This document shows, one piece after another, positions 14,233 to 27,286 of a stretch of DNA of 64,000 nt. The notes under the pieces are model-generated. The model saw only the letters and a program-made list of their open reading frames with translations. It made no database searches and was not told the origin of the DNA. The DNA is from Alicycliphilus denitrificans K601 (GTDB lineage: Bacteria > Pseudomonadota > Gammaproteobacteria > Burkholderiales > Burkholderiaceae_C). Made by a program: the position numbers and the translations under genes. Each line of letters starts with the position of its first letter. Within the stretch, counting starts at the first letter, position 1. Location: assembly GCF_000204645.1 (NCBI RefSeq), contig NC_015422.1, positions 2,745,001 through 2,809,000 on the forward strand. Reading direction: 5' to 3'.

Positions 14233-16089
14233 TTATGCGGGCTTGATGCTGCCGGGCACGATTTTCGCGCCGAACTCGCGCATCAGCTGCTGCACGTAGG
14301 GGTCGTTGTGGACGATGTCCTCGGCCGCGCGCTGGCGCTCGGCCGCGGCCTGGGCGTTGCGGCGCGCGGGGCTGTCGATGACCACGCCCACCTCCACGCT
14401 GATCTGGCGCGCGTGGCCCGCGGCCTCAAGGGCCGCGCGCAGGCGTTCGCGCGCCGTGGGCTGGTTCAGCGACTCGCGCTCCACGCGCAGCAGCCAGTGG
14501 CCTTCGTCGCGCGCCACGAGCTGCGACTGCAGTGCGAGCTCGCGCACCAGGGCAGTGATAGTCTCCTGCGCGATGAGCTGCTGCACCACGGCGTACCAGG
14601 CGTCGCCCTCCTCCGTGGGCACGAGCCGCGCCGGCGCGGGCGCGGCGCCGCCCGGTGCCATGGGCTGCAGGCGCGCGCCGGGCTCGGGCACGGTGCGCAC
14701 AGGTATTGCTACCGTTTCAGGAGCTGTCTGCGCTTGGCTGGCGGGCGGTTGAGGCTTATTTTGTCGGAATTCCTCGGGCGCCCGCACGGGCAGGCGCACG
14801 GCGGGCGCTGGGGCCGGGCCACTTGGCGCCGAGGGCTCCGCCGCGCCGATCGCCTCGTGCACCGCCCGGTTCACATCGTCCGGCGTGGGCTGCGGCGGCG
14901 CCTCATGGGCCCGCGCGGGCGGCGCGGCGGCGGGTTCAGGCCGCGTCAGAGTTTTTTTTTCCGCCATGGCCGCATCGGCCGGAGCGGGCTTGAAGGCCAG
15001 CAGGCGCAGCAGCACCATGGTCAGGGCGGCGTATTCGTCGGGCGCCAGGCCCAGCTCGGTGCGGCCGTGCAGGCAGATGCTGTAGAGCAGCTGTGTCTCG
15101 TCGGCCGGCATCAGCGCGGCCAGGCGGGCGATCTCGGCGGCCTCGGGGTCGGTCGCGTCCACGGCGGCAGCCATCTGCGGCACGGCCTGCAGCACGGCCA
15201 TGCGCTGCAGCACGGCGCTCATCTCCTCCAGCGTGCTTGCGGCCGACAGGCCATGGGTGCGCAAGGTGTCCGCCGTCTCCACCACGGTCCGGCCGTCGCC
15301 CTGCGCCAGCGCATCGATCAGGCGGAACACATGGCCGCGGTCCACGCTGCCCAGCATCTGGCGCACGGCGGCTTCCTGCAGCTGGCCACTGCCGAAGGCA
15401 ATGGCCTGGTCGGTCAGGCTCAGCGCGTCGCGCATGGAGCCGCGCGCCGCGCGCGCGAGCAGGCGCAGCGCCTGGGGCTCGGCGGCCACGCCCTCCTGCG
15501 CCAGCACGCGCGCGAGGTGCTCGAGCACCGTCTCGGGCGCCATGGGCCGCAGGTTGAACTGCAGGCAGCGGCTGAGCACCGTGACCGGCACTTTCTGCGG
15601 GTCGGTCGTGGCGAGCACGAACTTGAGGTATTCCGGGGGCTCCTCCAGCGTCTTGAGCATGGCGTTGAACGCCGTGTTCGTGAGCATGTGCACTTCGTCG
15701 ATCATGAAGACCTTGAAGCGCCCCTGCACCGGCTTGTAGACGGCCTGCTCCAGCAGGCCCTGCACCTCGTCCACGCCGCGGTTGGAGGCGGCGTCGAGCT
15801 CGGTGTAGTCGGGAAAGCGCCCTCTGTCGATGTCCTGGCAGGCCGGGCACACGCCGCAGGGCGTGGCCGTGATGCCGCCCTGGCCGTCTGGCCCCTGGCA
15901 GTTGAGCGACTTGGCCAGGATGCGCGAGACCGTGGTCTTGCCCACGCCGCGCGTGCCGGTGAACAGGTAGGCATGGTGCAGGCGCTGCTGCGTGAGCGCG
16001 TTCGTCAAGGCCTGCACCACGTGCTCCTGGCCCACCATCTCCGAGAAGGTCTTGGGACGGTATTTGCGGGCGAGCACGAGATAGGACAT
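14233..16089 (-). CDS. dnaX: DNA polymerase III subunits tau and gamma
   Basis: Clamp-loader ATPase of the replicative polymerase. The full-length tau form is 618 residues: Walker [11 protein letters not shown], a four-Cys zinc module ([12 protein letters not shown]), DEVHML (Walker B) and the SRC sensor in TVLSRCLQF. Domain III is followed by a Pro/Ala-rich linker and the C-terminal region that contacts polymerase and DnaB. At codons 377-380 the coding strand has nine consecutive A residues (GAA AAA AAA ACT). A shift into either other frame stops within about eight codons, giving a gamma-like protein of about 380 residues. The start at 16089 ([12 protein letters not shown]) is conserved in the family. 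An interspersed repeat lies in frame in the linker at 14704-14769. Confidence 0.97.
14704..14769 (+). repeat. Interspersed repeat copy 4, inside dnaX
   Basis: ATTGCTACCGTTTCAGGAGC, TGTCTGCGCTTGGCTGGCGG and GCGGTTGAGGCTTATTTTG run in the family order and closely resemble the copy at 22720. It falls in the unconserved linker of tau and keeps the frame open. Confidence 0.55.
14911..14927 (-). other. Hairpin downstream of the dnaX slippery run
   Basis: On the coding strand CCGCGC-CGCCC-GCGCGG starts 24 nt after the A9 run. A GC-rich stem-loop downstream of a slippery heptamer is the arrangement that stimulates frameshifting in E. coli dnaX, although there the spacing is shorter. Surrounding GC richness means chance pairing cannot be excluded. 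Confidence 0.35.
14952..14960 (-). other. A9 slippery run in dnaX (probable gamma-forming frameshift site)
   Basis: Nine A residues on the coding strand at codons 377-380. A -1 shift, or one extra A in the transcript, gives KKNSDAA and then a stop at 14936-14938. Loss of one A gives a stop even sooner (AAA CTC TGA). E. coli uses A AAA AAG and Thermus uses an A9 run at the same functional position, so truncation to a gamma subunit is expected here. Confidence 0.7.
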
Positions 16090-16136
16090 GGGGCGTGATT
16101 CTATGGTGCGTGGCCGCTCGCCCCGGTTTCCCGGCG

Positions 16137-16142
16137 TACAAT
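16137..16142 (+). promoter_or_regulatory. -10 element of ffs
   Basis: TACAAT lies 8 nt before the deduced 5' end of the SRP RNA, the right distance for a sigma-70 start. No good -35 hexamer is visible. Confidence 0.55.
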
Positions 16143-16150
16143 CTCGCCTT

Positions 16151-16244
16151 GACGGGCCTCCCCGCATGGTGAAGCGGCCAACCGGGTCAGGTGGGGAACC
16201 AAGCAGCCCTAACTGTGGAGCCAGTGCCGGGGGTAAGGCTCGTC
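16151..16244 (+). ncRNA. ffs: Bacterial small SRP RNA (4.5S RNA)
   Basis: RNA of the signal recognition particle that binds Ffh. The conserved loop sequence GGTCAGGTGGGGAACC followed by AAGCAGCC is the SRP S-domain signature. The ends pair: GACGGGCCT at the 5' end with AGGCTCGTC at the 3' end (one G-U), defining an RNA of about 94 nt. A run of five T follows at about 16257. It is divergent from dnaX, the standard location in many proteobacteria, and convergent with modE. Confidence 0.93.
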
Positions 16245-16271
16245 ACCCTCCCCTCTCTTTTTCCCCTCGCC

Positions 16272-17099
16272 TTACGCGGGAACCCCCACGATCACGCTCG
16301 ACGCCTTGAACAGCGCCGATGCCGCCGTGCCCGGCGCCAGGCCCAGCGCGTCGCAGCTCTCGTTGGTGATGATGGCGGCCACCGCCGCGCCTCCGGGCAG
16401 GCCGATCACCACCTCGGTGTTCACGGCGCCCTTCTGTACGCGCGACACGGTGCCCCGCAGGCGGTTGCGCGCCGAGAACCTGGCGCCCTGGTCGTCCGTC
16501 ACCACGATGACCGACGAGGCCTTGACCAGCGCGAACGCCTCGGCCCCCAGAACGAGGCCCAGGCTCTGGGCGCTCTCGTGCGTGACGATGGCGACGAGCT
16601 TCTGGCCCATGCCGGGCACGTCCAGTTCGATCTCGTCGTTCACGGCCCCGGGCGTCACGCGGGTCACCGTGCCGAAGAATTGGTTGCGTGCACTCGTTCT
16701 CATGCCCATTCTCCGTATCAAAAGGAAGTCATCGGCCACGCCCTGCGCCTGCGTGCTGAGCTGGTCCACGAACCGGCGGTGCGCGCGCTCGATGACGCCG
16801 AAACTGCGCACCAGGCGCATCCCTCTTTCAGTGAGCTTCGTGCCCCCGCCGCCTTTGCCGCCCACGAGCCGCTCCACGAGCGGCTCGCCCGCGAGCTGGT
16901 TCATGGCGTCGATGGCGTCCCACGCCGCCTTGTAGCTCATGCCCATGGCCTTGGCCGCCTGGCTGATGGAGCCATGCGTGGCGATGTACGCCAGCAGCTC
17001 CACCCGGCCCGGCCCGCCCAGGCTGCGGCCGCCCACCGTCATCCACACCGATCCGCGCAATTCGATGCGCGCGCCGTCCTGCTGCGCTGCTGCCGTCAT
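16272..17099 (-). CDS. modE: Molybdate-responsive regulator ModE
   Basis: Transcriptional regulator that binds molybdate or tungstate and represses uptake genes. 275 residues, similar in length to E. coli ModE: an N-terminal winged helix (SISQAAKAMGMSYKAAWDAI, residues about 43-62) and two tandem Mop/TOBE domains (about residues 132-195 and 205-270). Each has the RN..G.V..V..GAVN..V pattern (NQFFGTVTRVTPGAVND; NRLRGTVSRVQKGAVNT) that forms the oxyanion sites. AAAGGA precedes the ATG. It is 36 nt after modD and the last gene of the molybdenum operon, so it is probably autoregulated through the operators near 26424-26518. Confidence 0.95.
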   Translation of the reverse strand: MTAAAQQDGARIELRGSVWMTVGGRSLGGPGRVELLAYIATHGSISQAAKAMGMSYKAAWDAIDAMNQLAGEPLVERLVGGKGGGGTKLTERGMRLVRSFGVIERAHRRFVDQLSTQAQGVADDFLLIRRMGMRTSARNQFFGTVTRVTPGAVNDEIELDVPGMGQKLVAIVTHESAQSLGLVLGAEAFALVKASSVIVVTDDQGARFSARNRLRGTVSRVQKGAVNTEVVIGLPGGAAVAAIITNESCDALGLAPGTAASALFKASSVIVGVPA

Positions 17100-17135
17100 G
17101 GCCGTCCTTTCATTGAAGGCGCCAGTGTAGAGAGG

Positions 17136-17987
17136 CTACAGCGGCGCCACGCTCACGCCCACGTCGGCGGGCGGGGCGTAGTGCAGGCTGCTGGTGACCA
17201 GCGCATCCACGCCGCTGGCCGCGTAATCCGCCGCGTTGCCGGCGTTGATGCCGCCGGCGGCCAGCAGCCGCAGCCGCGGGTGGCGCGCGCGCAGCGGCGG
17301 GCACCAGGCGCGCAGGTCCTGCGGCGCGGCCTTGTCGAACTGCACCACGTCCGCGCCTGCGGCGGCCGCGCGCAGCGCCTCGTCGAGCGAATGCGCCTCG
17401 ATCACGCATTTCTTCTCGGCCAGCGCGTGCGCCACGGCGGCCAGGCGCTCGGCCACGCCGTCCCAGCCGCCGAGCAGCGCGCGGTGCTGGGGGAAGACCA
17501 GCACCGTCTCGCCCACGCCCAGCCGATGCGGGAACGCGCCGCCGCTCAAGGTGGCCTTGAGCGCGATGCGGCGCAGCCCCGGCGCATGCTTGCGCGTGGT
17601 GAGCACGGCCACGCCGGGCGCGGCGGCCTGCACGGCGCGCACCATGCGCGCGGTGGCGCCGGCCACGCCGCAGGCGTACTCCAGCAGGTTCTGCGCCACC
17701 TTCCAGGCGCGCAGCAGGCCGGCCGCGTCGCCGGTGGCGGCCAGCAGCACGTCGCCCGCGGCCACGGGCGTGCCGCTCGCCAGCAGATCCTCTACGCGCC
17801 CGCCGCAGTGCCGCACGATGCGCGCGGCCTCCTCGGTGCAGGCGGCCACCGATTCGCCGCGCACCGTGAAGCGCATGCGCGCGGGCTGGCCGCCCACGGC
17901 GAGCAGGTGGGTGGTCAGGTCCACGAGCGGCGCGTCCTCGGCGATCCAGGCGTCGATCGTGGCGTGGTCGAAAAACACGGAATTCAT
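17136..17987 (-). CDS. modD: ModD, quinolinate-phosphoribosyltransferase-like protein of molybdenum operons
   Basis: 283-residue member of the ModD family, homologous to nicotinate-nucleotide pyrophosphorylase (NadC fold) and found almost only beside molybdate transport genes; its substrate is not established. NadC-like motifs include NLLEYACGVAGATARMV, TTRKHAPGLRRIALKA and the C-terminal barrel with AAGGINAGNAADYAASGVDA. The ATG at 17987 overlaps the modB stop as ATGA, which fixes the start; an ATG at 17999 is also in frame. The order modA-modB-modD-modE supports a role in molybdenum or pterin metabolism. Function beyond that is inference. Confidence 0.92.
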   Translation of the reverse strand: MNSVFFDHATIDAWIAEDAPLVDLTTHLLAVGGQPARMRFTVRGESVAACTEEAARIVRHCGGRVEDLLASGTPVAAGDVLLAATGDAAGLLRAWKVAQNLLEYACGVAGATARMVRAVQAAAPGVAVLTTRKHAPGLRRIALKATLSGGAFPHRLGVGETVLVFPQHRALLGGWDGVAERLAAVAHALAEKKCVIEAHSLDEALRAAAAGADVVQFDKAAPQDLRAWCPPLRARHPRLRLLAAGGINAGNAADYAASGVDALVTSSLHYAPPADVGVSVAPL

Positions 17988-18646
17988 AGCGCTCCCCATC
18001 GGCGTAGTACGAAGAAAGCCAGCGCGGCGATGCCCGCCAGCAGCAGCGACAGCGTGTTGGCGCAGGCCAGGTTGCCGTCCATGACGTGGTTGTAGATGGC
18101 CAGCGACAGCGTCTCGGTGCGCCCGGCGATGTTGCCGCCCAGCATGAGCGACAGCCCCACCTCGCCCAGAGCGCGCCCGCCGGCCAGCACCAGCCCTGCC
18201 GCCACGCCCCGGCGCGCCAGCGGCACGTCGATGCGCCAGAACACGCTCCAGGGCCGGTGCCCGAGCAAGGCCGCGGCCTCGCGCAGGCGCGGCGGTATGC
18301 CCGCGAATGCCGCCTGCGCGGGCTTGACCATGAGCGGCAGCCCGGCGACGAAGGCCGCGATCACCAACCCCGTCTGCGTGAACACGATCTCGGGCCGCAG
18401 CGGCGGCGGCAGCCACTGCGTGAGCCAGCCCTGGCGCCCGAGCAGCAACAGCAGGCCGTAGCCCAGCACGATGGGCGGAAACACCAGCGGCAGCGTGACG
18501 AGCGCGTCGAGCAGCCCACGCCCCGCGAAGCGCCTGCGCGCGAGCAGCCACGCCAGCGCCGTGCCCAGCACGAGCTGCAGGCCCATGCTCCACGCCACCA
18601 CGCCGAAGGTCAGCAGCAGGGGCGCACCCGGACAGCCGTCCAGCAT
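17984..18646 (-). CDS. modB: Molybdate ABC importer permease
   Basis: Inner-membrane permease, 220 residues with about five to six helices, of the ModB/CysW superfamily. The ATPase-contact loop is in GGRALGEVGLSLMLGGNIAG. Its ATG directly follows the modA stop (TAAATG) and its end overlaps modD. The partner ATPase modC, normally the third gene of modABC, is absent from this operon. The nearest ATPase gene is the BtuD/FecE-like one at 20963-21724, normally matched to a different permease fold. ModC may be encoded elsewhere. Confidence 0.93.
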   Translation of the reverse strand: MLDGCPGAPLLLTFGVVAWSMGLQLVLGTALAWLLARRRFAGRGLLDALVTLPLVFPPIVLGYGLLLLLGRQGWLTQWLPPPLRPEIVFTQTGLVIAAFVAGLPLMVKPAQAAFAGIPPRLREAAALLGHRPWSVFWRIDVPLARRGVAAGLVLAGGRALGEVGLSLMLGGNIAGRTETLSLAIYNHVMDGNLACANTLSLLLAGIAALAFFVLRRWGAL

Positions 18647-19363
18647 TTACATGCCGTGGCGTTCGAGCACCTGCCGCGCGGCGGGCGATGCCAGGTAGTT
18701 GAGGAAGGCCCGCGCGGCGGCCCCGCCGGCGCGCCCCTTGAGCACGCCCACGCTCAGCTCGATGGGGTCGTAGCAGTCCTGCGGCGCGTCGATGGCCGCT
18801 CCCGCGCGCCCCTGCAGCGCCAGCGCCTCGGTGCGGTTGAGGAAGCCCGCATCCACCTCGCCCGTGGCGACATAGGCGCTCACCTGGGGCACGGTGGCGA
18901 CCTCCACGAGCCGCCCGGCCAGCGGCTGCGCCAGGCCCAGGCGCGCCAGGCAGGTGGCTGCCGCGTTGCCATAGACCGCCTTGGCGCGGTCGGGCAGCGC
19001 GATGCGCCTAAAGCGCGGCTCGCGCAGGTCGGCCAGGGAGGCGATGGCCTGCCCGCGCGCCGTCACCAGCACCAGCCTGCCCGTGCCCAGGGGCTGGAAG
19101 CGCTCGGCCAGCCCCATGGGCTCCAGGAAAGCGCGGTCGCCGATCATCAGCGCGATGTCGGGGTTCTGCCTGGCCTGCGTTTCCACCTGCCTCATGTTGC
19201 CGAAGCTCGCCTCGGTGCGCATGCCGCTGGACTTCGAGAAGTCCTCCAGCAATTCCATGACGGGCTTGCGGTAGCCGGCGCCCGCGGCGACCAGCAGCGC
19301 ATCGGCGGCCCAGGCGTTCGCGGCCAGGAGGAAGGCCGCGCAGGCCAGGAAGAAACGTTGCAT
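18647..19363 (-). CDS. modA: ModA-like periplasmic molybdate-binding protein
   Basis: 238-residue binding protein with a Sec signal peptide (MQRFFLACAAFLLAANAWA, cleavage before ADALLV). The mature part has the ModA-like type II fold (VAAGAGYRKPVMELLEDFSK, ALPDRAKAVYGNAA, ATVPQVSAYVATGEVDAGFL). The binding loop reads AGAGYRKP rather than the AASL type of E. coli ModA, so a different oxyanion preference is possible. The start has AAAGGAG 5-6 nt upstream and lies 11 nt after the DUF364 gene. It occupies the same operon as a second binding protein (22778-23812), which is unusual. Confidence 0.85.
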   Translation of the reverse strand: MQRFFLACAAFLLAANAWAADALLVAAGAGYRKPVMELLEDFSKSSGMRTEASFGNMRQVETQARQNPDIALMIGDRAFLEPMGLAERFQPLGTGRLVLVTARGQAIASLADLREPRFRRIALPDRAKAVYGNAAATCLARLGLAQPLAGRLVEVATVPQVSAYVATGEVDAGFLNRTEALALQGRAGAAIDAPQDCYDPIELSVGVLKGRAGGAAARAFLNYLASPAARQVLERHGM

Positions 19364-19374
19364 GAAAACTCCTT

Positions 19375-20178
19375 TCACAGGCAAAGACAAATGCGTTCCA
19401 CCGACTTGCCGAAGAAGTGGTAGCCCGAGCCCCCTTCGGCGAGCAGGTCGAGCAGTTCGGCGGGCGCGCGCACGCGCGTGCCGCCCACCACGGTGGCGCC
19501 CCGGCGCGCGAACGGCGCCGCGCGCAGCGTGGCCGTGGGCCCCACCACGGCGGCCTGCGCGCCGGGGCGCAGGTGGCGCAGCAGGTCGTCCAGCGTGCCG
19601 TTGACCAGGGTGGTGCCGGTGGTGATGAGCACGTCGGCCCCGCCCACGATCTCCGGGGCGCGCTCGGCGGGTGCGTAGAACGGCAGCTCCTCGGGCTTGA
19701 GCGTGGAGGGGCCGAGTTCGAGCACGTGAAAGGGCTGGCCGCTGCGCCGCAGCGCGCGCTGGCCGGGCGCGATGGCGAGCGCGTCGAACGCATCGCCCTC
19801 CTCCACGCGCGCGCCGGGCGGCGGGCCGTCCCGCTGCCACAGCGTCTCGGCCAGCGCGTTAAGCGTGGCGATGGCGAGCGCGCGGCGCAGGTCCTGCGGG
19901 CGGTACAGATCCTGCAGCACTTCGGCCGCGCTGCGCCCGGCGATGCGGCCCGGCACGGGCATGGCCAGCGCGGAGCTGGGGCAGCACACGGCCTCGGGCA
20001 CGCTCTTGACGGGCGTGGCGCACAGGCCGCCCACGCCGTTGTCGAGCTGCACGCCCGTGAAGAAGATGCCCAGCACGGCGCGCGCGATGCGCAGGCGCTC
20101 CAGGGCCTGCGCGCCCAGGGCGCCCGCCACGTCGGCATGCAGTTCGGCCAGCAGGCCGTCGGTTGCGGCGTTCAGCAT
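19375..20178 (-). CDS. DUF4213/DUF364 protein of molybdenum operon
   Basis: 267-residue protein with an N-terminal DUF4213 (enolase-N-like) region and a C-terminal Rossmann-like DUF364 domain (about residues 150-265, with EIVGGADVLITTGTTLVNGT). The family is annotated as putative heavy-metal chelation; a structural homologue suggested binding of a pterin- or SAM-like ligand, but no activity is established. GGAG lies 8 nt before the ATG. The gene overlaps the 3' end of the methyltransferase by 7 nt, so the two are translationally linked. Possible roles are handling a molybdenum complex or acting with the methyltransferase on a small chelator; both are inference. Confidence 0.8.
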   Translation of the reverse strand: MLNAATDGLLAELHADVAGALGAQALERLRIARAVLGIFFTGVQLDNGVGGLCATPVKSVPEAVCCPSSALAMPVPGRIAGRSAAEVLQDLYRPQDLRRALAIATLNALAETLWQRDGPPPGARVEEGDAFDALAIAPGQRALRRSGQPFHVLELGPSTLKPEELPFYAPAERAPEIVGGADVLITTGTTLVNGTLDDLLRHLRPGAQAAVVGPTATLRAAPFARRGATVVGGTRVRAPAELLDLLAEGGSGYHFFGKSVERICLCL

Positions 20179-20966
20179 CGTGGTTTCTCCCAGGAGATGA
20201 AGGCCCAGCGCATGGGCGGGCCCGCGCGCTCGGCGGGCGTTGCCTGCCCGTACCAGGCGCACAGGCGCGTGGTTTCCGCCACGCTCAGCTCGCCCAGCGA
20301 CCAGGCCACGCGGCGCGCGTAGTCGTCGAAGTCCTGCGCGTCGGCCAGGCGGCTTTCCTGCGTAAGGTAGGACAGGCAGGGGTGGATGCCCATGCGGTGC
20401 AGGATGTTGACGAGGTAGATGTAGTCCGGCACGGTGGGCACGCTGCGGCCGATCACGCGCTGGATGGCCGGGTCGATGAAATGCCCGCCCGCGGGGTGCG
20501 TGAGGTACACGCGCCGCCGCGCCTTGGCGTCCAGCTTGGCGAGCGCGGCGGCGATGTCGTCCACCAGCGTGGCGCGCGAGGCGACGGCGACGTCGCACAC
20601 GGGCACGTCGCTCCAGTCGTCCTCCCAAGCGCGGTGCAGCGTCTCGACGTGCTGGAGGCCCTGCTCTGCGGCCAGCGCGCGCAGGGCGTCCAGCATGGCG
20701 GCGCTGTAGTCCAGCCCCACCACGCGCCGCAAGCGGGGCGCCACGGCCAGCGCAATGGTGCCGGGGCCGCAGCCCACGTCGAGCAGCGATTCGGCGCCCG
20801 CGAGGTCCATGCGCGCCACGAAGTCCCGCGTGTAGCCGCTGCGCAGTGCCTTGGCGGCCATGCCCGCGGCGCGGGAGTCCCAGGCGCTGGCGGTCTTGCG
20901 CGTGCGCGCGGCGATGGCGAGGTGGTCGCGGTACAGGCGGCCGAAGTCGATGGCGTCTATGGTCAT
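20172..20966 (-). CDS. Class I SAM-dependent methyltransferase in molybdenum operon
   Basis: 264-residue methyltransferase with SAM motif I LLDVGCGPGTIALAVAPR, motif II VVGLDYSAAMLDALRAL and a DVAVASRATL motif IV region. The N-terminal part (LYRDHLAIAARTRKTASAWD, then SRAAGMAAKAL) matches small-molecule methyltransferases rather than RNA or protein ones. Its ATG overlaps the ABC ATPase stop (ATGA) and its end overlaps the DUF364 gene, so it is embedded in the transporter operon. The substrate is unknown; a metal chelator or pterin is a guess from context. Confidence 0.85.
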   Translation of the reverse strand: MTIDAIDFGRLYRDHLAIAARTRKTASAWDSRAAGMAAKALRSGYTRDFVARMDLAGAESLLDVGCGPGTIALAVAPRLRRVVGLDYSAAMLDALRALAAEQGLQHVETLHRAWEDDWSDVPVCDVAVASRATLVDDIAAALAKLDAKARRRVYLTHPAGGHFIDPAIQRVIGRSVPTVPDYIYLVNILHRMGIHPCLSYLTQESRLADAQDFDDYARRVAWSLGELSVAETTRLCAWYGQATPAERAGPPMRWAFISWEKPRC

Positions 20967-21724
20967 GCGGTGGTCCAGTTCAAGGAGGCGGCGACGGCGC
21001 TTTCGCTCACACCGTAGAGCGCGGCGAGTGCCGCCGGGGTGGCGGTGGCGCGCGGCGCGCCGATGGCTTGCAGCCGCCCGCCGCCCAGCAGCGCGACGCG
21101 GTCAGCGATGCGCAGCGCGTGCTCGGGCTGGTGCGTGCTCATGAGCACGGCCATGCCACCTGCGCGCAGGCGCCCGATGTGCTCCAGCACGCGGATCTGG
21201 TTGCCGAAGTCCAGGCTCGCCGTGGGCTCGTCCATCACCAACAGCGAGGGTTCCTGCGCCAGGGCGCGGGCGATGAGCGCGAGCTGGCGCTCGCCGCCGC
21301 TGATGGCCGTGTAGACACTCGCGCGCAGGCGGGCGATGCCGAGCAGCTCCAGGCAGTGCCGCGCCACCTGCCGGTCCGCCGCGCCCGGCGCGGAGAAGCG
21401 TCCCACGCGCGCCGCGCGGCCCATGAGCACCACGTCCTCCACGGTGAAGGGGAACAGGCCCGCGTGCGCCTGCGGCACGTAGCCCACGTGGCGCGCGAAG
21501 GCCGCGCGCGGCCATGCGACCACGTTCTGGCCGCGGCAGCGCACCTCGCCCGCCAGCGGCGGCAGCAGGCCGAGCAGCGTGCGCAAAAGCGTGGTCTTGC
21601 CGCTGCCGTTGGCGCCCAGCAGGCACAGCACCTCGCCGGGCGCAAGCGCGAAGGCCAGCCCCTGCGCCACGCAGCGCCGGCCGTGGCCGATGGACAGGCT
21701 CTGCGCCTGCAGCACCACGCTCAT
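20963..21724 (-). CDS. FecE/BtuD-type ABC ATPase (MolA-like)
   Basis: 253-residue ATPase of the vitamin B12/siderophore/molybdate (type II importer) class. Walker A GANGSGKTTLL, signature ISGGERQLALIARAL, Walker B LLVMDEPTASLDFGN, switch STHQPEHAL. It overlaps both the permease gene upstream and the methyltransferase downstream by ATGA. Co-occurrence with modA, modB, modD, modE and ModE boxes points to molybdate or tungstate, like Haemophilus MolBCA, rather than iron. It is the only ABC ATPase gene in an operon that encodes two different permeases. Confidence 0.9.
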   Translation of the reverse strand: MSVVLQAQSLSIGHGRRCVAQGLAFALAPGEVLCLLGANGSGKTTLLRTLLGLLPPLAGEVRCRGQNVVAWPRAAFARHVGYVPQAHAGLFPFTVEDVVLMGRAARVGRFSAPGAADRQVARHCLELLGIARLRASVYTAISGGERQLALIARALAQEPSLLVMDEPTASLDFGNQIRVLEHIGRLRAGGMAVLMSTHQPEHALRIADRVALLGGGRLQAIGAPRATATPAALAALYGVSESAVAASLNWTTA

Positions 21725-22788
21725 TCGCGCCCTCCCGAGCGGGCCAGCAGGAGCAGGAAGAACGGCGCGCCCACCAGCGCGGTGAGGATGCCCAGCGGCA
21801 GCTCGATCGGCGCCGCGGTGCGCGCCAGCGTGTCCGCCGCCACCAGGAAGCCCCCGCCCAGCAGCAGCGACGCGGGCAGCAGCCGCGAGAACTCCGGCCC
21901 CACCAGTAGCCGCGCCACGTGCGGCACCACCAGGCCCACCCAGCCCACGATGCCCGCGAGCGACACCGCCGCCGCCGTGGCCAGCGTGGCCGCGGCCACC
22001 AGCGCCAGGCGCAGGCGCCGCACGGCCACGCCCAGCGCCTGCGCCTCCTCGTCGGGCAGGGACAGCAGGTTGATGCGCCAGCGCAGCAGCGCCAGCGGCA
22101 CCAGGCCCGCGAGCAGCGCGGGCGCGGTGGCTTTCAGGTCCGCGGGCGTGACCGCGTTCAGCCCGCCCAGCAGCCAGAAGGTGATGGTGGGCAACTGCGT
22201 GGCGGGGTCGGCCAGAATCTTCACGAGCGCGATGCCCGCGCCCAGCAGCGCGCCCACGGCCACGCCCGCGAGCACCAGCACCAGCACCGGGTCGTGCCGC
22301 CGCACCAGGCCCGCCACCGCGAGCACCGCCCCCACGGCCAGCAGCCCGCCCGCGAAGGCCAGCGCCTGCACCGCCGCGATCGGCAGGCCCAGGTAGATGG
22401 CCGCCACCGCGCCCAACCCCGCGCCGGCCGACACGCCCAGGATGTCGGGCGAGACCAGCGGGTTGCGGAACATGCCCTGGTAGGCCGCGCCCGCCGCCGC
22501 CAGCGCCATGCCCACGAGCAGCCCGGCGGCCACGCGCGGCAGGCGGATGCTCCACACCACCGTCTCCACGGCAGCCGGCAGGCCCGACTCCGCGCCCGTG
22601 AGGCGCGCGGCCACGGCGCGCCACAGGTCGCCCGGCGCGACGGAGAACTTGCCCGAGGCGAAGGCCGCCAGCACCACGGCCGCGAGCAGCGCCACGGCCA
22701 GCAGCCAGCGCAGCGGCATTGCTATTGATACAGGAGCTTCTAGCGCTTGATGGATGGGCGCTGAAGCCCGATTCGACTCATATTCCAT
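21721..22788 (-). CDS. FecCD/BtuC-type ABC permease (MolC-like)
   Basis: 355-residue permease with about ten transmembrane helices, the BtuC/FecCD fold. Family motifs include RLPRVAAGLLVGMALAAAGA, NPLVSPDILGVSAGAGLGA and GIVGWVGLVVPHVARLL. The first 23 residues (MEYESNRASAPIHQALEAPV, SIA) are encoded by an interspersed repeat and look non-native. The ancestral start is probably the ATG at 22719 (MPLRWLL), but neither start has a good ribosome-binding site. The ATG at 22788 overlaps the binding-protein gene by 11 nt. Substrate inferred as molybdate or tungstate from operon context. Confidence 0.9.
   Translation of the reverse strand: MEYESNRASAPIHQALEAPVSIAMPLRWLLAVALLAAVVLAAFASGKFSVAPGDLWRAVAARLTGAESGLPAAVETVVWSIRLPRVAAGLLVGMALAAAGAAYQGMFRNPLVSPDILGVSAGAGLGAVAAIYLGLPIAAVQALAFAGGLLAVGAVLAVAGLVRRHDPVLVLVLAGVAVGALLGAGIALVKILADPATQLPTITFWLLGGLNAVTPADLKATAPALLAGLVPLALLRWRINLLSLPDEEAQALGVAVRRLRLALVAAATLATAAAVSLAGIVGWVGLVVPHVARLLVGPEFSRLLPASLLLGGGFLVAADTLARTAAPIELPLGILTALVGAPFFLLLLARSGGRE
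22720..22784 (+). repeat. Interspersed repeat copy 5, at the 5' end of the molC-like gene
   Basis: TTGCTATTGATACAGGAGCT, TCTAGCGCTTGATGGATGGG and CGCTGAAGCCCGATTCGACT follow in order; this is one of the clearest copies and can serve as a reference. It encodes the first 23 residues of the predicted permease when translated from 22788. Confidence 0.65.
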
Positions 22789-23812
22789 CCAGCAGCCTTT
22801 GCACGTCCTGCGCCGACAGCGCGGCGCCGTAGAACGACTGGTAGAAGCGCCGCACCGCCTCAGGCAGCGGCTCCAGCGCGCGCAGCGCCGGGTGGCCGGG
22901 GTGCAGGCGCTCGAGCAGCCAGCGCACGCCGATCAGGCGGTTCACGCCGGGCGGCCCGTCCAGCCAGCCGAAGGGCAGCGCGGGCGCGCAGTGCACCCGC
23001 CCCGCGCGCACGGCGGCGATGCCGCGCCACTGCGGGTCGGCGAGCACGCGGCGCGCGAAGGCCGCGTCCTGCGTGACGATGACCTCGGGGTCCCACTGCA
23101 GCAGTTGCTCCAGCGACACGCGCGTGAGCGCGCCCTGGCCCGCCTCGGCCGCCACGTTGCGGCCGGCGCAGAAATCCAGCAGCTCCACGTTGATGGAGCC
23201 GGCGCGTCCCGTCTCCAGCCCGTCCGCGCCGCGCCCGTAGTACACGCGCGGGCGCCCGGCCGGCGGCACGCTGGCGCGCACCCGAGCGGCCAGGGCGATT
23301 GCGGCTTCGGCTTCCAGGGCCAGCCGCTCGCCGCGTTCGGCCGCGCCCAGCAGGCGGCCCACCGCGCGCAGCTGCGCGGCGTGGTCGGCGATGCGCCCCT
23401 GCACCAGCACCGTGGGCAGGCCCGTCTGCTCGCTCACGCGGCGCACGCCGGAGACGTAGGTGGCGTCCGCCGTGCCCGCGTCCAGCACCAGGTCGGGCGC
23501 CAGCAGCAGCAGCGATTCGAGCGGCACCGTGCTGCCGCGCCCCGACAGGCGCCCCGTGTGCGGCAGCGCGCGCAGCTGCGGGCCGAGCAGCGCGCGCGCC
23601 TCGTCGCCGAGCGTGAGCGGCCAGCCGATGAGCTTCTCGGGCGCGAGCGCCGCCACCAGCACGCCCGCGGGCGGGCCCGCCGCGAACACCTTGCGCACGT
23701 GCCCGGGCGGCGTGCCGAAGCGCGCCACGACCACGCCCTCCGCACTCTGTGCACGGACGCGCGCGGCCGTGAGCGCCAGCGGCAGTTGCAGCAGCAGGCG
23801 CCGGCGCATCAT
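22778..23812 (-). CDS. FecB/BtuF-type periplasmic binding protein (MolB-like)
   Basis: 344-residue class III substrate-binding protein. The short basic leader (MMRRRLLLQLPLALTAARVR, A) is a signal peptide; the rest shows two lobes joined by a helix, with SLLLLAPDLVLDAG, GLPTVLVQGRIADHAAQLRA and LLQWDPEVIVTQDAAF. Such proteins carry cobalamin, ferric chelates, haem or, in Haemophilus MolB, molybdate/tungstate. The ATG at 23812 overlaps the DUF2478 stop (ATGA). In this ModE-linked operon a molybdenum species is the most likely cargo, perhaps chelated since a TonB receptor is present. Confidence 0.88.
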   Translation of the reverse strand: MMRRRLLLQLPLALTAARVRAQSAEGVVVARFGTPPGHVRKVFAAGPPAGVLVAALAPEKLIGWPLTLGDEARALLGPQLRALPHTGRLSGRGSTVPLESLLLLAPDLVLDAGTADATYVSGVRRVSEQTGLPTVLVQGRIADHAAQLRAVGRLLGAAERGERLALEAEAAIALAARVRASVPPAGRPRVYYGRGADGLETGRAGSINVELLDFCAGRNVAAEAGQGALTRVSLEQLLQWDPEVIVTQDAAFARRVLADPQWRGIAAVRAGRVHCAPALPFGWLDGPPGVNRLIGVRWLLERLHPGHPALRALEPLPEAVRRFYQSFYGAALSAQDVQRLLDGI

Positions 23813-24348
23813 GCCGGCACCCTGCGGCCCACGGCCAGCGTGAACCAGGACCGCAGCGCGGCCATGCGCGGGGGCAGCTCCTCGCCCATGCCGCCCGTGA
23901 ACCGGCGCCAGGCATCGAGGTGCTTGGCCGCGACCACGGTGAGCACGGGAATGTCCTCGCCCACCAGCGCCGCCAGCTCGGCCGCATGGCCGCCGCCCGT
24001 GGCCTCCAGCGCGCCGAAGCGGTTGCCGACGGCCAGGTGCACCCGGTCGGCCAGTGCCTGGCGCAGCACGCCGCCGGCCTGCGCGACGCCGTCCGGGTCG
24101 AGGCAGCACGCGCGCGAGAGCGGCCCGAGGTCCTGCGAGATGGAGAACACCCGACCCGTGCGCATGTCCACGAGCTGCAGGCGCGGCTTGCCGCCGCCCT
24201 CGGCCGGCACGCACTGCTGCGCCAGGCCGCCCACGCGCCAGCCCGCGCGCTGCAGGTCCTGGCAGAACTCCAGCACCAGCGCGTCGGCCGCGTCGCCGCC
24301 GTCCATGTCGCCGCCATACACCAGGGCCGCCAAAGGATGTGTCGCCAT
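23809..24348 (-). CDS. DUF2478 protein of molybdenum operon
   Basis: 179-residue cytoplasmic protein of the DUF2478 family. Family traits visible are a nucleotide-binding-like start (LAALVYGGDMDGGDAADALV), GGLAQQCVPAEGG, MRTGRVFSISQDLG and SRACCLDPDGVAQAGGVLR. The family recurs in molybdate gene clusters and has been compared with NTPases, but no function is established. The ATG at 24348 has GGAG 7 nt upstream; a longer frame from 24447 would overlap the receptor gene. There are 79 nt between the receptor stop and this start, the largest gap within the operon. Confidence 0.8.
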   Translation of the reverse strand: MATHPLAALVYGGDMDGGDAADALVLEFCQDLQRAGWRVGGLAQQCVPAEGGGKPRLQLVDMRTGRVFSISQDLGPLSRACCLDPDGVAQAGGVLRQALADRVHLAVGNRFGALEATGGGHAAELAALVGEDIPVLTVVAAKHLDAWRRFTGGMGEELPPRMAALRSWFTLAVGRRVPA

Positions 24349-24427
24349 GTCCGCTCTCCGCACGCAACCGGCGCGGCCCGGGCCGGCCGCCGACGCGCAA
24401 GGGCCGTCCCGCCGCTCGGGGAGACGG

Positions 24428-26407
24428 TCAGAATCGATAGGTTCCATTGACGTACCAGAACCGCCCGGGCATGGGGTGGCCGTCGGCCAGTTCGTACCAC
24501 TTGTCGCCCAGGTTGTCCACGCCGAAGTCGAGCGCGAAATCCTTCGCGGGCTTGTAGATCGCCTTGACCCCGGCGGTGCCGAAACCGCCGAGCTGCCGGT
24601 AGGCGCCGTCGAAGTTCACGCGGCGGCCCTGCTCGGCCTCCAGCGTGGCATGCAGTTCCCACTGCGCGCCGGGCAGCCAGCGCACGGCCGCGAACAGGCG
24701 GTGGCGCGGCGTGTCGACCAGCGTCACGCTGGGGTTGCTCAGGTTGGTACGCTGCAGGTAGGTGTAGCTGGCGTTCGCGCTCCACCGGGCCGAGAACTGC
24801 TGCGCCAGCGACAGCTCCAGCCCCTGGTTGCGCGTGCGGCCCACGTTCTGCGCCTGGCCGCAGGTGGTGCCGCCGCAGGCGCCCGAGGGCACCACCACGG
24901 TCTGGATCTGGTCGCTGACGCGGCTGTGGAACACGGCCGCCTGGCCCTTGCCGCCCGCCCAGGGCTGGCCGCTCACGCCCAGCTCGAAGTGGTTGGCGGC
25001 CTCGGGCCTGAGGTCGGGGTTGGGCAGCGCCCGGCCCATGCGCGCGGAGTAGCGGTCCTTGATGGTGGGAAAGCGCGTCTTGTGCGAGAGCACGGCGTAC
25101 ACCTCGTCGCCCTGCTGCGTGAGCGCGTAGCCCAGCCGGGCCAGGCCGTTGGTGGCGTTGGTCGAGCCCTTGGGCCAGTGGTAGACCTCCTTGGCGTCGC
25201 GCTTCTCGCGGCTCGCGCCCAGGGTCAGGCGCCAGCGGTCGGACAGGGCGATGGTGTCCTCGGCCACCAGCGAGGTGGTCACGTCGCGGTAGAACTTGCC
25301 GGTGTCGTCGTGCTCGTCCACCTTGTAGTGCGCAGCAAAGCGCAGCTCATGCCCGGCCAGGCCGTAGTTGGCCCACTCAATGGTGGCGCCCTTGCTCGTG
25401 TCCTTGTAGGCGCTGGTCGGATCGTGCTGGGTGAAGCTCGCGTCCTTGTACATGTCCAGGCCGTTCTTGTAGGTGTCGTGGTACAGCCGGGCCTTGAGCA
25501 CGCTGTCGCTGCCGATGCGCGTGCTGCTCAGGAAGTACAGGCTGTCCTTGTCCCAGTACGGCCAGCGCCAGTAGCGCACGGCGCTCTTCTGCGTGGAGGT
25601 GCCGGTGTAGACCGGGTTGCCCTTCCCGCCCTCCTGGCGCACGTAGCCCAGCGCGTATTCATCGGTGGCATTGGGCGTGAGGCCGAGCTTGAACGACAGG
25701 CGCTTGTCGGTGCGGTAGGCGTTCTCGCGGCTGCTGCCGGTGTCGGTGGGCTGTTTCTTGTAGTCCTTGAACCCGCTGGGCAGCGGAAAGCTGTCGGCGT
25801 CCAGATACGAGGCGCCGATCTGGTAGTACCAACTGTCCTGGTTGCCGCCCAGGTTGACCGCTGCCTTGCGCGTCTGCCCCGAACCAAAGCCCAGGCGCGC
25901 ATCGCCCTCGAACGACTTGACCGGCTTGCGCGTGACGAGGTTGATCGCCCCGCCCAGCGTGTTGGGGCCGTAGAGCAGCGAGGCATCGGCCTTGGCGACG
26001 CGAATCTCGGCCAGGTCGAACGTGGTGAAGCGGCCGAAGTCCACGTAGCCGTCGTAGGGCACGTACAGCGGTACGCCATCGACGAACACTGGCACCTGGC
26101 GCGAGTCGAAGCCGCGCACGTAGATCATCTCCTCATTGCGGGCGCCAACGCGCGAAATGCTCACGCCGGGCAGCAGCCGCGCCGCATCGGACACGGTGTC
26201 GGCGTTGTAGCGCGCGATCTCCTCCTGGCCCAGCACGGCCTCGCCGGCCGCCTGGCTCTTCACCGGCGCGCCCACCACGGTCACCGTGCCCAGCTCGAAG
26301 ACCCCGTCCGCCGCCTGCACCGCCCCCGCGGAAAGTCCCAGCGCCAGCAGCACCGGGCCGGCCCCGCTCCGCCTGCGCCCCCGTTTCGCCGATTCCCTCG
26401 CTGCCAT
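24428..26407 (-). CDS. TonB-dependent outer-membrane receptor, ModE-regulated
   Basis: 659-residue precursor of a ligand-gated outer-membrane porin. A basic signal peptide (cleavage near GAVQA-ADG) is followed by a TonB-box-like VFELGTVTVVGAP, a plug domain (about residues 45-160; ARLLPGVSISRVGARN, YVRGFDSRQVPVFVDGVPLY, LYGPNTLGGAINLVTRKP) and a beta barrel ending in Phe (YVNGTYRF). It heads the operon containing a MolBCA-like importer, modAB, modD and modE. Two ModE-type operators lie just upstream, so it is probably repressed when molybdate is plentiful. The ligand may be a molybdate or tungstate chelate; iron or cobalamin is less likely given the operators. Start at 26407 with AGGAAG upstream. 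Confidence 0.92.
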   Translation of the reverse strand: MAARESAKRGRRRSGAGPVLLALGLSAGAVQAADGVFELGTVTVVGAPVKSQAAGEAVLGQEEIARYNADTVSDAARLLPGVSISRVGARNEEMIYVRGFDSRQVPVFVDGVPLYVPYDGYVDFGRFTTFDLAEIRVAKADASLLYGPNTLGGAINLVTRKPVKSFEGDARLGFGSGQTRKAAVNLGGNQDSWYYQIGASYLDADSFPLPSGFKDYKKQPTDTGSSRENAYRTDKRLSFKLGLTPNATDEYALGYVRQEGGKGNPVYTGTSTQKSAVRYWRWPYWDKDSLYFLSSTRIGSDSVLKARLYHDTYKNGLDMYKDASFTQHDPTSAYKDTSKGATIEWANYGLAGHELRFAAHYKVDEHDDTGKFYRDVTTSLVAEDTIALSDRWRLTLGASREKRDAKEVYHWPKGSTNATNGLARLGYALTQQGDEVYAVLSHKTRFPTIKDRYSARMGRALPNPDLRPEAANHFELGVSGQPWAGGKGQAAVFHSRVSDQIQTVVVPSGACGGTTCGQAQNVGRTRNQGLELSLAQQFSARWSANASYTYLQRTNLSNPSVTLVDTPRHRLFAAVRWLPGAQWELHATLEAEQGRRVNFDGAYRQLGGFGTAGVKAIYKPAKDFALDFGVDNLGDKWYELADGHPMPGRFWYVNGTYRF

Positions 26408-26423
26408 TCCCACTTCCTCGATT

Positions 26424-26447
26424 CGCTATAGAAATTTTTATATAGCG
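26424..26447. promoter_or_regulatory. ModE operator 1
   Basis: CGCTATA-N10-TATAGCG: perfect 7-bp inverted half-sites with a 10-bp A/T-rich spacer, matching the E. coli ModE site architecture. It ends 17 bp before the receptor start codon, and a TATATAAA stretch inside it could be the -10 region, so bound ModE should block transcription. Confidence 0.8.
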
Positions 26448-26494
26448 CTAGACAAAAACAAGCGCCATGCTGTGGCGCCACGTGATTTCTGCAC

Positions 26495-26518
26495 CGCAAT
26501 ATATATTTATATATAGCG
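26495..26518. promoter_or_regulatory. ModE operator 2
   Basis: CGCAATA-N10-TATAGCG: one mismatch from the first operator and the same spacing, with its centre 71 bp away (about seven helical turns). It lies between the receptor operon and the divergent exported-protein gene at 26696, so it could serve either side. Confidence 0.7.
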
Positions 26519-26695
26519 AATCTCAACGATCCATGCCAGCAACTCTGAGATGGATCAATCCCGGCCGTCCATCCGGGGGAGACGGCTGCCGCGAGACCTC
26601 GTCCTACACGGCAAAGCGCCCTTGCGGAGCTGCGCGGAAGACGCGCGCTCCCATACTGGAGTCCGACGATCGCCCTTCACGCTTGGAGTGACGCC

Positions 26696-27286
26696 ATGCC
26701 ATCGCTTGCGACAGCACGGACACGCACTTGCCGCCTGTTGGCGTGGCTGCTGGCCGGCAGCCCCGTGTGCCCGGCGATGGGCCAGACCAGCTTCGTCCCC
26801 CCTTCCCCCGCCATGGCGCCCGTCGAAATCTCCGGGAGCAGCGCCCCCCTGGATACGCGGGGCGAATCCCTGCGTCTGGACGTCACGCGCTGGATGCCGC
26901 CCGGGCGCGCCGGCAGCCTCGGGTTCTCGCTCGGCCTGATGCTGCCCACCCAGGCCGACCTGCGGCCGTACACCACGGCCGTGGCCCCGTGGAGCAGCGA
27001 CGTGGGGCTGCGCTGGCGCGCGCCGCTGGGCAGCGGCCACCACCTGGACATGGCCGTCTGGGCCCGCACGGCCCGATCCGGCCAGGAGGCCGACGCCATG
27101 GGCATGATCTGGCACCGCGAGCAAGGCAGCTACGGCACGCGGCTGGAGGTGCAGTGGACCAGCTCGCGCACCCGCGGCCTGGTGCCCGAGTTCGGCGCCA
27201 TCGGCGTGCAGCTGCAGGGCGACTCGCGCCTGCTGCTGCGCGCCAAGCGCGGCGGGCCCATGCTGTACTACCGCACCAGGTTCTGA
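26696..27286 (+). CDS. Exported hypothetical protein divergent from the molybdenum operon
   Basis: Not recognised. A 196-residue protein with a signal-peptide-like start (basic stretch, then LLAWLLAGSPVCPAMG, cleavage near MGQ). The mature part has alternating, aromatic-poor beta-like segments (GSLGFSLGLMLP, SDVGLRWRAPLGSG, LDMAVWARTARSG, YGTRLEVQW, LLLRAKRGGPMLYYRTRF), ending in Phe, which suggests a small outer-membrane or periplasmic beta protein. GGAG lies 7 nt before the ATG. It is divergent from the TonB receptor and shares the upstream region with both ModE boxes. Its 3' end overlaps the convergent flavoprotein gene by 19 nt. Confidence 0.7.
   Translation: MPSLATARTRTCRLLAWLLAGSPVCPAMGQTSFVPPSPAMAPVEISGSSAPLDTRGESLRLDVTRWMPPGRAGSLGFSLGLMLPTQADLRPYTTAVAPWSSDVGLRWRAPLGSGHHLDMAVWARTARSGQEADAMGMIWHREQGSYGTRLEVQWTSSRTRGLVPEFGAIGVQLQGDSRLLLRAKRGGPMLYYRTRF

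Follow-up and report, generated by a model that had tools for sequence, protein, structure and literature searches.

A ModE-linked operon headed by a TonB-dependent receptor gene in Alicycliphilus denitrificans K601, a candidate system for acquiring scarce molybdenum or tungsten

By the usual account, molybdate diffuses passively through the outer membrane. What, then, might a TonB-dependent outer-membrane receptor contribute to an operon that also encodes the regulator ModE and proteins of the Mod family? The question arises within a 64,000-nucleotide (nt) stretch of the Alicycliphilus denitrificans K601 genome (hereafter the window; contig NC_015422.1, positions 2,745,001 to 2,809,000), where open reading frames (ORFs) and searches with Pfam and NCBIfam profiles place eleven minus-strand genes between positions 26407 and 16272. 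The answer that we favor, with a probability of roughly 80%, is that these genes form a ModE-repressed, TonB-dependent operon by which a molybdenum or tungsten species in short supply is acquired across the entire cell envelope. The original prediction for this DNA had proposed a full envelope-spanning molybdenum acquisition system, and the proposal draws support from three features that are evident in the sequences themselves, namely the gene content, a set of ModE-type palindromes, and a recurrent linkage of the receptor family with Mod- and Tup-type genes. Together these features make ModE-type regulation and a molybdenum or tungsten connection well supported, and transport by the receptor likely.

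The strongest evidence for this reading is the predicted ModE-type palindromes upstream of the receptor gene, which the original prediction did not mention. The distal palindrome, CGCTATATATAAATATATATTGCG (26495..26518, minus strand), has no mismatches to a first search pattern of 14 fixed bases (spacer of 5-11, with up to two mismatches allowed), and the proximal one, CGCTATATAAAAATTTCTATAGCG (26424..26447, minus strand), was located by pattern scan 16 nt ahead of the receptor ATG. Both match the Escherichia coli-type ModE consensus ATCGNTATATA-N6-TATATANCGAT, as given in PMC545781, with a few differences. Across the window, the first pattern yields four strand-wise matches against 0.08 expected, and none of 100 shuffled sequences reaches as many. 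A predicted sigma-70 promoter, TTGAGA-17-TATATT (26498..26526, minus strand; one found against 0.3 expected in shuffles), places its -10 hexamer within the distal box, which is the geometry of a repressor. The distal box departs by one mismatch from a refined core, CGNTAT-N12-ATANCG; the palindromes of 11 compared relatives align at the position of the proximal box, and a T-rich stretch ahead of that box also recurs among relatives. A terminator-like hairpin between the boxes (26461-26479, minus strand) was considered as a leader attenuator and rejected as a conserved element, being absent from the 11 relatives, two of which gave other short hairpins in the leader. The spacer that holds the boxes is shared with a divergently oriented 196-amino-acid (aa) ORF (26696-27286, plus strand), whose start resembles a signal peptide by eye and which may be co-regulated with the operon.

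Inspection of the whole 5.07-Mb genome ties this spacer to one other locus. The exact core CGNTAT-N11/12-ATANCG is confined to two sites, one upstream of this operon and one at a separate modABC locus: the N12 form is found once, at the 24-nt proximal box (the reversed-pattern control gives no sites), and the N11 form once, between modA and a second ModE-like gene (the reversed control gives one site). The separate locus (L021, genome C1:3723000-3732500) comprises modABC and the divergent ModE-like gene, with a 23-nt palindrome of shorter spacing between them; the protein encoded by that gene scores below the cut-off for TIGR00637 (80.9 versus 98.5 bits). The two ModE-type regulators of the host may favor different palindrome spacings. 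Nine further TonB-receptor matches exist in the host, and the eight that were scanned over 1,500 nt ahead of the barrel match, a span that may miss some promoters, carry no ModE-type site; the exact core is excluded elsewhere genome-wide.

The same arrangement recurs upstream of related receptors. Scanning a single genome for each species gave 190 passing stretches, from which 80 loci were kept, mostly from Beta- and Gammaproteobacteria together with one Verrucomicrobiaceae metagenome-assembled genome; nine are from Stenotrophomonas. Upstream regions were testable in 77 of the 80, control windows were drawn from the same loci, and no scoring was done blind. With up to two mismatches, the first pattern is present in 46 of the 77 upstream regions and in 13 of 1362 control windows, and perfect sites are present in 17/77 against 0/1362. 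The refined core, of 10 bases and sought ahead of the first gene of each locus, occurs exactly in 48/77 regions against 2/1366 controls, and with at most one mismatch in 64/77 against 21/1366. A further set of 15 loci includes eight whose receptors are less than 75% identical to the 80 (the other seven being 84-100% identical to loci already used), and four of these eight have a site with one core mismatch at most (p 6e-6 relative to the 1366-window controls). In several loci the site lies ahead of the gene that precedes the receptor, clearly so in L052, L056, L071, L072, L075, L079 and L080, and near the frame start of that gene in L047 and L055. Two loci, L030 and L031, have perfect palindromes upstream of the receptor with CGYTGTAT half-sites that differ from the core at two positions; these are possibly a further variant of the ModE box.

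A response of the operon to iron, cobalamin or another signal in place of molybdate had been named as what would overturn the original prediction. As judged through DNA sites only, the evidence favors ModE: its sites are present, and close Fur boxes (up to six mismatches) appear in 3 of the 77 upstream windows against about 2.4% of controls, without excess. At up to eight mismatches, Fur boxes appear in 43/77 windows against about 36% of controls, a shift that the A+T-rich character of upstream DNA would itself produce. Regulation by iron was accordingly dropped as a candidate, given the lack of enrichment of close boxes. Within the window, no cobalamin or molybdenum-cofactor riboswitch reaches its gathering threshold.

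What surrounds the receptor in these relatives also points to molybdenum. Three classes of neighborhood can be distinguished, A in 46, B in 27 and C in 10 of the 80 loci, with limited overlap (two loci in both A and B, two in B and C, one in A and C) and two loci in none. In class A, the receptor is accompanied by a MolA-type binding protein, a FecCD permease or both, usually by DUF2478 (found in 36/80 loci), and sometimes by the methyltransferase, DUF364, ModAB, ModD or ModE as well. Class B joins the receptor to a binding protein that resembles iron- and pyridoxal-phosphate-binding proteins and, in 25 loci, to a di-haem oxidoreductase, each assignment resting on one tested member (with Pfam, in the case of the oxidoreductase). 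Class C contributes a protein with a molybdopterin-binding domain (before the receptor in eight loci and after it in two; four checked with Pfam), and ModE is present in seven of its ten loci. Matches to a TupA-like binding protein occur in 14/80 loci, ten of them directly after the receptor, two about 3.5 kb away and two weak; the one member tested against structures is closest to 3lr1, which is annotated as binding tungstate (E 1.3e-13). Within about 11 kb, 35/80 loci have a Mod gene and 32/80 have ModE, for which the chance expectation, given two ModE-type genes in 5 Mb, is about 1% by rough estimate. A molybdenum link of some kind (palindrome, Mod, TupA-like or molybdopterin-domain partner) is found in 68 of the 80. 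When all neighboring ORFs were clustered, spurious frames from GC-rich DNA overwhelmed the result, which served only to choose candidates. Two other features of these neighborhoods are an additional, distinct TonB receptor, about 770 aa long in L047, that adjoins in seven of the 80 loci (L047, L057, L073, L078, L084, L095 and L107), and a single open frame in L076 (11973-12932), beside the receptor and a di-haem oxidoreductase, that combines cytochrome c and molybdopterin-binding domains.

Within the family of the host, the receptor is present in 10 of 150 genomes. ModE over its curated cut-off is found in six of these ten and in 15 of the 140 genomes that lack the receptor (p 0.0005). DUF364 occurs in five of the ten receptor-bearing genomes, as a single copy each, about 6.6 kb from the receptor start, and the operon copy is the sole DUF364 match in the host genome.

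The operon itself holds all eleven genes of the original prediction, on the minus strand and in the order given there. The tight junctions that had been claimed (overlaps or spacings under 40 nt) are likewise seen: with the chosen starts, six junctions overlap by 4-11 nt, the ModA and ModB genes abut, and two other gaps measure 11 and 36 nt. The remaining junction, between the receptor and DUF2478 genes, depends on the start, with a 79-nt gap if DUF2478 begins at 24348 and an overlap if the upstream start at 24447 is used. The first gene encodes the receptor (24428..26407; 659 aa), which matches the Pfam barrel PF00593 (1e-35) and plug PF07715 (2e-20); it is followed by the gene for the DUF2478 protein (23809..24348; 179 aa from the ATG; PF10649, 9e-48). 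An importer of the FecBCD type comes next, consisting of a FecB/MolA-type periplasmic binding protein (Peripla_BP_2, PF01497; 22778..23812; 344 aa), a FecCD-type, or type II, permease (PF01032, 8e-84; 21721..22788; 355 aa) and a FecE/BtuD-type ABC ATPase (PF00005; 20963..21724; 253 aa). Two accessory proteins then intervene, one with an S-adenosylmethionine-dependent methyltransferase domain (PF13649, 4.5e-11; 20172..20966; 264 aa) and one with DUF4213 followed by DUF364 (PF13938, 9e-16, then PF04016, 7e-31; 19375..20178; 267 aa). The operon ends with a ModA-like binding protein (18647..19363; 238 aa; TIGR01256, 99.7 bits, cut-off 62.5), a ModB permease (17984..18646; 220 aa; TIGR02141, 184.3 bits, barely over the cut-off of 182.6), the quinolinate phosphoribosyltransferase-like protein ModD (17136..17987; 283 aa; TIGR01334, 217 bits, cut-off 178.9) and ModE (16272..17099; 275 aa), in which a helix-turn-helix and two TOBE stretches are recognized with Pfam and which exceeds the TIGR00637 cut-off (108 versus 98.5 bits; genome C1:2761749-2762015).

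The receptor has many homologues (a minimum of 2123 at E <= 1e-60) and lies apart from the iron, B12 and PQQ receptors compared. Among the 25 of 27 matching NCBIfam iron, haem and B12 subfamily models that were listed, all score below cut-off, the nearest being siderophore, haem and B12 receptors. An AlphaFold2 model (mean predicted local distance difference test, pLDDT, 81.5, with residues 1-39 and 41-53 below 50) finds its closest solved folds by Foldseek in chains of the copper receptor OprC, at 16-18% identity; the template-modeling (TM) scores of 0.77 for OprC, 0.76 for Cir and 0.75 for BtuB differ by a margin too small to interpret. In a quick tree, all 26 sampled members (the window receptor and receptors of 25 of the 80 loci, fetched by similarity) fall on one side of a branch with a support of 99 in the Shimodaira-Hasegawa-like approximate likelihood ratio test, a separation that this sampling favors. 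The outgroups were five E. coli receptors and eight of the nine other host receptors, and several branches are long. Clustering with characterized iron or B12 receptors, the other outcome that had been named as damaging to the prediction, is not seen with E. coli BtuB, CirA, FepA, PqqU or FecA; the tree is weak evidence, chiefly indicating that no tested iron or B12 receptor lies inside the group.

Structural comparisons of the inner-membrane components are less uniform. The FecB/MolA-type binding protein matches the Protein Data Bank entries 4pag (1.7e-32; no ligand assigned in the structure listing), 4ovk (5.4e-15) and MolA, 3psa (1.8e-11), and its AlphaFold2 model (pLDDT 90.7) returns 4pag, 4ovk, 2etv and MolA 3psa, in that order, from Foldseek. 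A second Mod-type binding protein and permease had also been predicted; this stands insofar as ModA and ModB exceed their cut-offs, with the qualification that no ModC adjoins them and the ModA ligand motifs are missing. The operon encodes no ModC ATPase, and the sole modC over cut-off in the genome, at C1:3728220, lies outside it. In alignment, the operon ModA has AGAGYRKP and SFGNMRQ where the other ModA of the host has AANFTAP and SFGATGK and that of E. coli has AASLTNA and SFASSST, stretches that we take to contain the ligand residues of the E. coli protein; the operon ModA thus lacks the usual oxyanion-ligand motifs. Because of these altered motifs and the missing ModC, the pair may bind something other than plain molybdate, and it should not yet be named a second molybdate ABC transporter. 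To our knowledge, DUF2478, DUF364 and ModD have no established function. A profile search of DUF2478 against solved structures found nothing significant (best E 0.11), and a resemblance to THEP1/MobB-like NTPases, suspected by eye, was discarded as unsupported by any search.

These components can be arranged into a mechanism that we infer as follows. When cytoplasmic molybdate is ample, ModE-molybdate would occupy both palindromes and block the promoter; when molybdate is scarce, the operon would be expressed. Using TonB energy, the receptor would then pull a molybdenum or tungsten species through the outer membrane into the periplasm, where the MolA-type binding protein would receive it for transport to the cytosol by the FecCD/ATPase pair. 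A second route may be provided by the divergent ModA-like/ModB pair, which would need to share the ModC of the separate modABC locus. Once in the cytosol, the metal or its ligand would most likely be processed or released by four accessory proteins: DUF2478, DUF364, the methyltransferase and ModD.

Several observations weigh against this scheme. Some of the loci are related to one another, and when receptors are clustered at 70% identity a site with up to two mismatches is found in 17 of 30 clusters; the refined core and the definition of the first gene were both picked on the same loci as were scored, and the remaining four of the eight more distant receptors have more than one core mismatch. 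Similarly, ModE at E <= 1e-18 is present in 10/10 receptor-bearing and 88/140 receptor-lacking genomes of the family (p 0.015) at a threshold set after the table had been seen. Twelve of the 80 loci have no molybdenum link by the criteria used above; among these, a palindrome does precede the DUF364 gene ahead of the receptor in L052 and L072, and a second receptor gene 7 kb away in L073. The expectation that the same genes would recur with ModE boxes held for the boxes (the core with up to one mismatch, in 64/77), and did not hold for all of the genes: the methyltransferase is found in only 23/80 loci, DUF364 in 8/80 and ModD in 5/80, and such frequent absence means that these proteins cannot be essential to the receptor. 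The host also retains an ordinary modABC, with ModA, ModB and ModC all over their NCBIfam cut-offs. Finally, ModE can govern genes that do not serve uptake, so co-regulation alone is no proof of substrate, and the substrate of every member is a predicted one.

The inner-membrane importer adds to these reservations, and at the same time supplies the case for an iron-siderophore or cobalamin uptake system that was merely captured by ModE control. Structures annotated for iron nearly equal the MolA score of the binding protein (4hn9, 4.7e-10; 2etv, 2.4e-9), Vibrio cholerae BtuF matches it at 0.0016 (E. coli BtuF at about 0.1), and the best-scoring models for the FecCD permease and the ATPase are those of cobalamin and F420 importers (corrinoid and F420-0 ATPases, for the latter), all below cut-off, as are the siderophore, haem and B12 models nearest to the receptor. 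The predicted label MolBCA-like fits the importer loosely: the component types agree, and MolA is a good match that other structures surpass. An iron or cobalamin cargo is nonetheless highly improbable, since the receptor lies outside the E. coli BtuB, CirA/FepA and PqqU/FecA branches (in the similarity-biased tree), close Fur boxes are not enriched, no cobalamin riboswitch reaches threshold in the window, and Mod, TupA-like and molybdopterin-domain partners recur. A system for tungstate or another tungsten species, in which ModE would report only molybdate sufficiency, is improbable as well: the TupA-like partners described above favor it, whereas the documented needs of the host are for molybdoenzymes (PMC3692508 describes it as denitrifying and as breaking down cyclohexanol by means of a three-subunit molybdoenzyme), and ModE-type palindromes are common to the operon and modABC.

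If molybdenum or tungsten is the cargo, its chemical form becomes the central issue. The original prediction of a large, perhaps chelated species goes beyond the sequence evidence. The host has no match to a nonribosomal peptide synthetase (NRPS) condensation domain or to an IucA/IucC synthetase. Eight of the ten receptor-bearing genomes of the family have no condensation domain over cut-off (two do), and none of the ten has an IucA/IucC match. A self-made molybdophore of the NRPS or NRPS-independent (NIS) type was on this ground set aside, in a search limited to these two classes, and appears unlikely for the host; a chelator, if used, is probably of another class or not made by the host itself. 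An organic molybdenum or tungsten chelate, self-made or produced by others, whose ligand DUF364, the methyltransferase, DUF2478 and ModD would modify or strip, is nevertheless a serious possibility, if short of an even bet. It is consistent with the several loci in which the methyltransferase and DUF364 accompany the importer, with the work of Miller et al. (2010; PMC2954201), who connected DUF364 with genes for the transport of molybdate, tungstate and vanadium and proposed a flavin- or pterin-like chelator, and with molybdenum-binding compounds of Azotobacter that are described as serving uptake (PMC3440940). Against it stand, besides the two biosynthetic classes missing from the host, the many receptor loci that lack the methyltransferase or DUF364, and the fact that a coarse look at the neighbors examined recognized no recurrent chelator-biosynthesis gene. 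That the cargo is instead bare molybdate, tungstate or a polyoxo form, taken up without a chelator as OprC and MnoT take up copper and manganese (PMC8602904), is possible and somewhat doubtful. The partners are of oxyanion-binding types (MolA-like, TupA-like and ModA-like), the lack of NRPS condensation and IucA/IucC matches in the host fits, and the nearest solved folds are those of a copper receptor. The OprC lead is trivial, however, and the customary oxyanion motifs are missing from the operon ModA; in addition, the accessory proteins (methyltransferase and DUF364) point to an organic ligand, and the class B di-haem oxidoreductase to chemistry past capture. Extending the favored reading, we tentatively consider, as a minority view, that the receptor represents a distinct and widespread Gram-negative molybdenum/tungsten TonB family whose inner partners form three interchangeable modules (the MolA-type importer accompanied by DUF2478, the methyltransferase and DUF364; the di-haem oxidoreductase and its associated binding protein; and ModE together with a molybdopterin-domain protein), and that a bulky or complexed cargo might be freed by dedicated chemistry, through periplasmic redox in the di-haem class and cytosolic ligand processing in the DUF364 class.

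Parts of this arrangement have precedents. The importer resembles MolBCA of Haemophilus influenzae (HI1470-1472) in combining a FecB-fold binding protein with a type II FecCD/ATPase pair, and MolA is among the first Foldseek matches; it differs in that its binding protein is closer to 4pag and 4ovk. MolBCA is not known to be tied to a TonB receptor, to ModE or to DUF364, DUF2478 and methyltransferase genes of the kind seen in the operon. The E. coli ModABC/ModE system shares with the operon the palindrome type, proteins of the ModA and ModB families and a ModE that contains two TOBE stretches; the operon, by contrast, lacks ModC and adds an outer-membrane step, and the AASLT and SFASSS-type motifs of E. 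coli ModA are missing from its ModA, whereas they are kept as AANFT and SFGATG in the other ModA of the host. In Geobacter sulfurreducens, modE-modD-modABC likewise places ModD beside ModE and Mod genes downstream of a ModE-type site, with neither a TonB receptor nor a FecCD importer in the descriptions given in PMC2700814 and PMC545781. The DUF364 systems of Miller et al. (2010) also set a DUF364 protein next to metal importer genes, and their description (PMC2954201) includes no TonB receptor or ModE box.

At the outer membrane, TonB receptors for metals other than iron are known, as is a route for molybdate through secreted ModA and IcmP (PMC8602904, PMC11734730). OprC and MnoT are, like the proposed receptor, induced by scarcity of a non-iron metal (PMC8602904); the present receptor differs from OprC in its low identity and in having ModE-type sites instead of CueR. 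The type VI secretion system-ModA-IcmP route of Pseudomonas aeruginosa, as outlined in those same sources, provides an outer-membrane step for molybdate by means of a secreted ModA and of IcmP, described as an outer-membrane metalloproteinase rather than a TonB receptor. A search of the open-licence literature, judged mainly by titles and the starts of abstracts, with subscription papers and regulon databases outside its scope, found no molybdenum TonB receptor among the papers listed. If real, a receptor family under ModE control in denitrifiers and other nitrate users would help to explain competition at picomolar molybdenum; at the Oak Ridge site, for example, nitrate reduction may be limited by molybdenum this scarce (PMC7604516). 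The family would likewise offer a sequence marker of molybdenum-limited communities and testable roles for DUF2478, DUF364 and ModD.

Two minor observations concern the DNA around these genes. The body of the operon (18001-24000) has a G+C content of 73.6-76.4%, and that reported for the K601 genome is 67.8% (PMC3692508). Just beyond the end of modE, a small signal recognition particle RNA (RF00169, 63.9 bits) is found on the plus strand at 16151-16247, overlapping a dnaX-like ORF on the opposite strand (14233-16167) by 17 bases.

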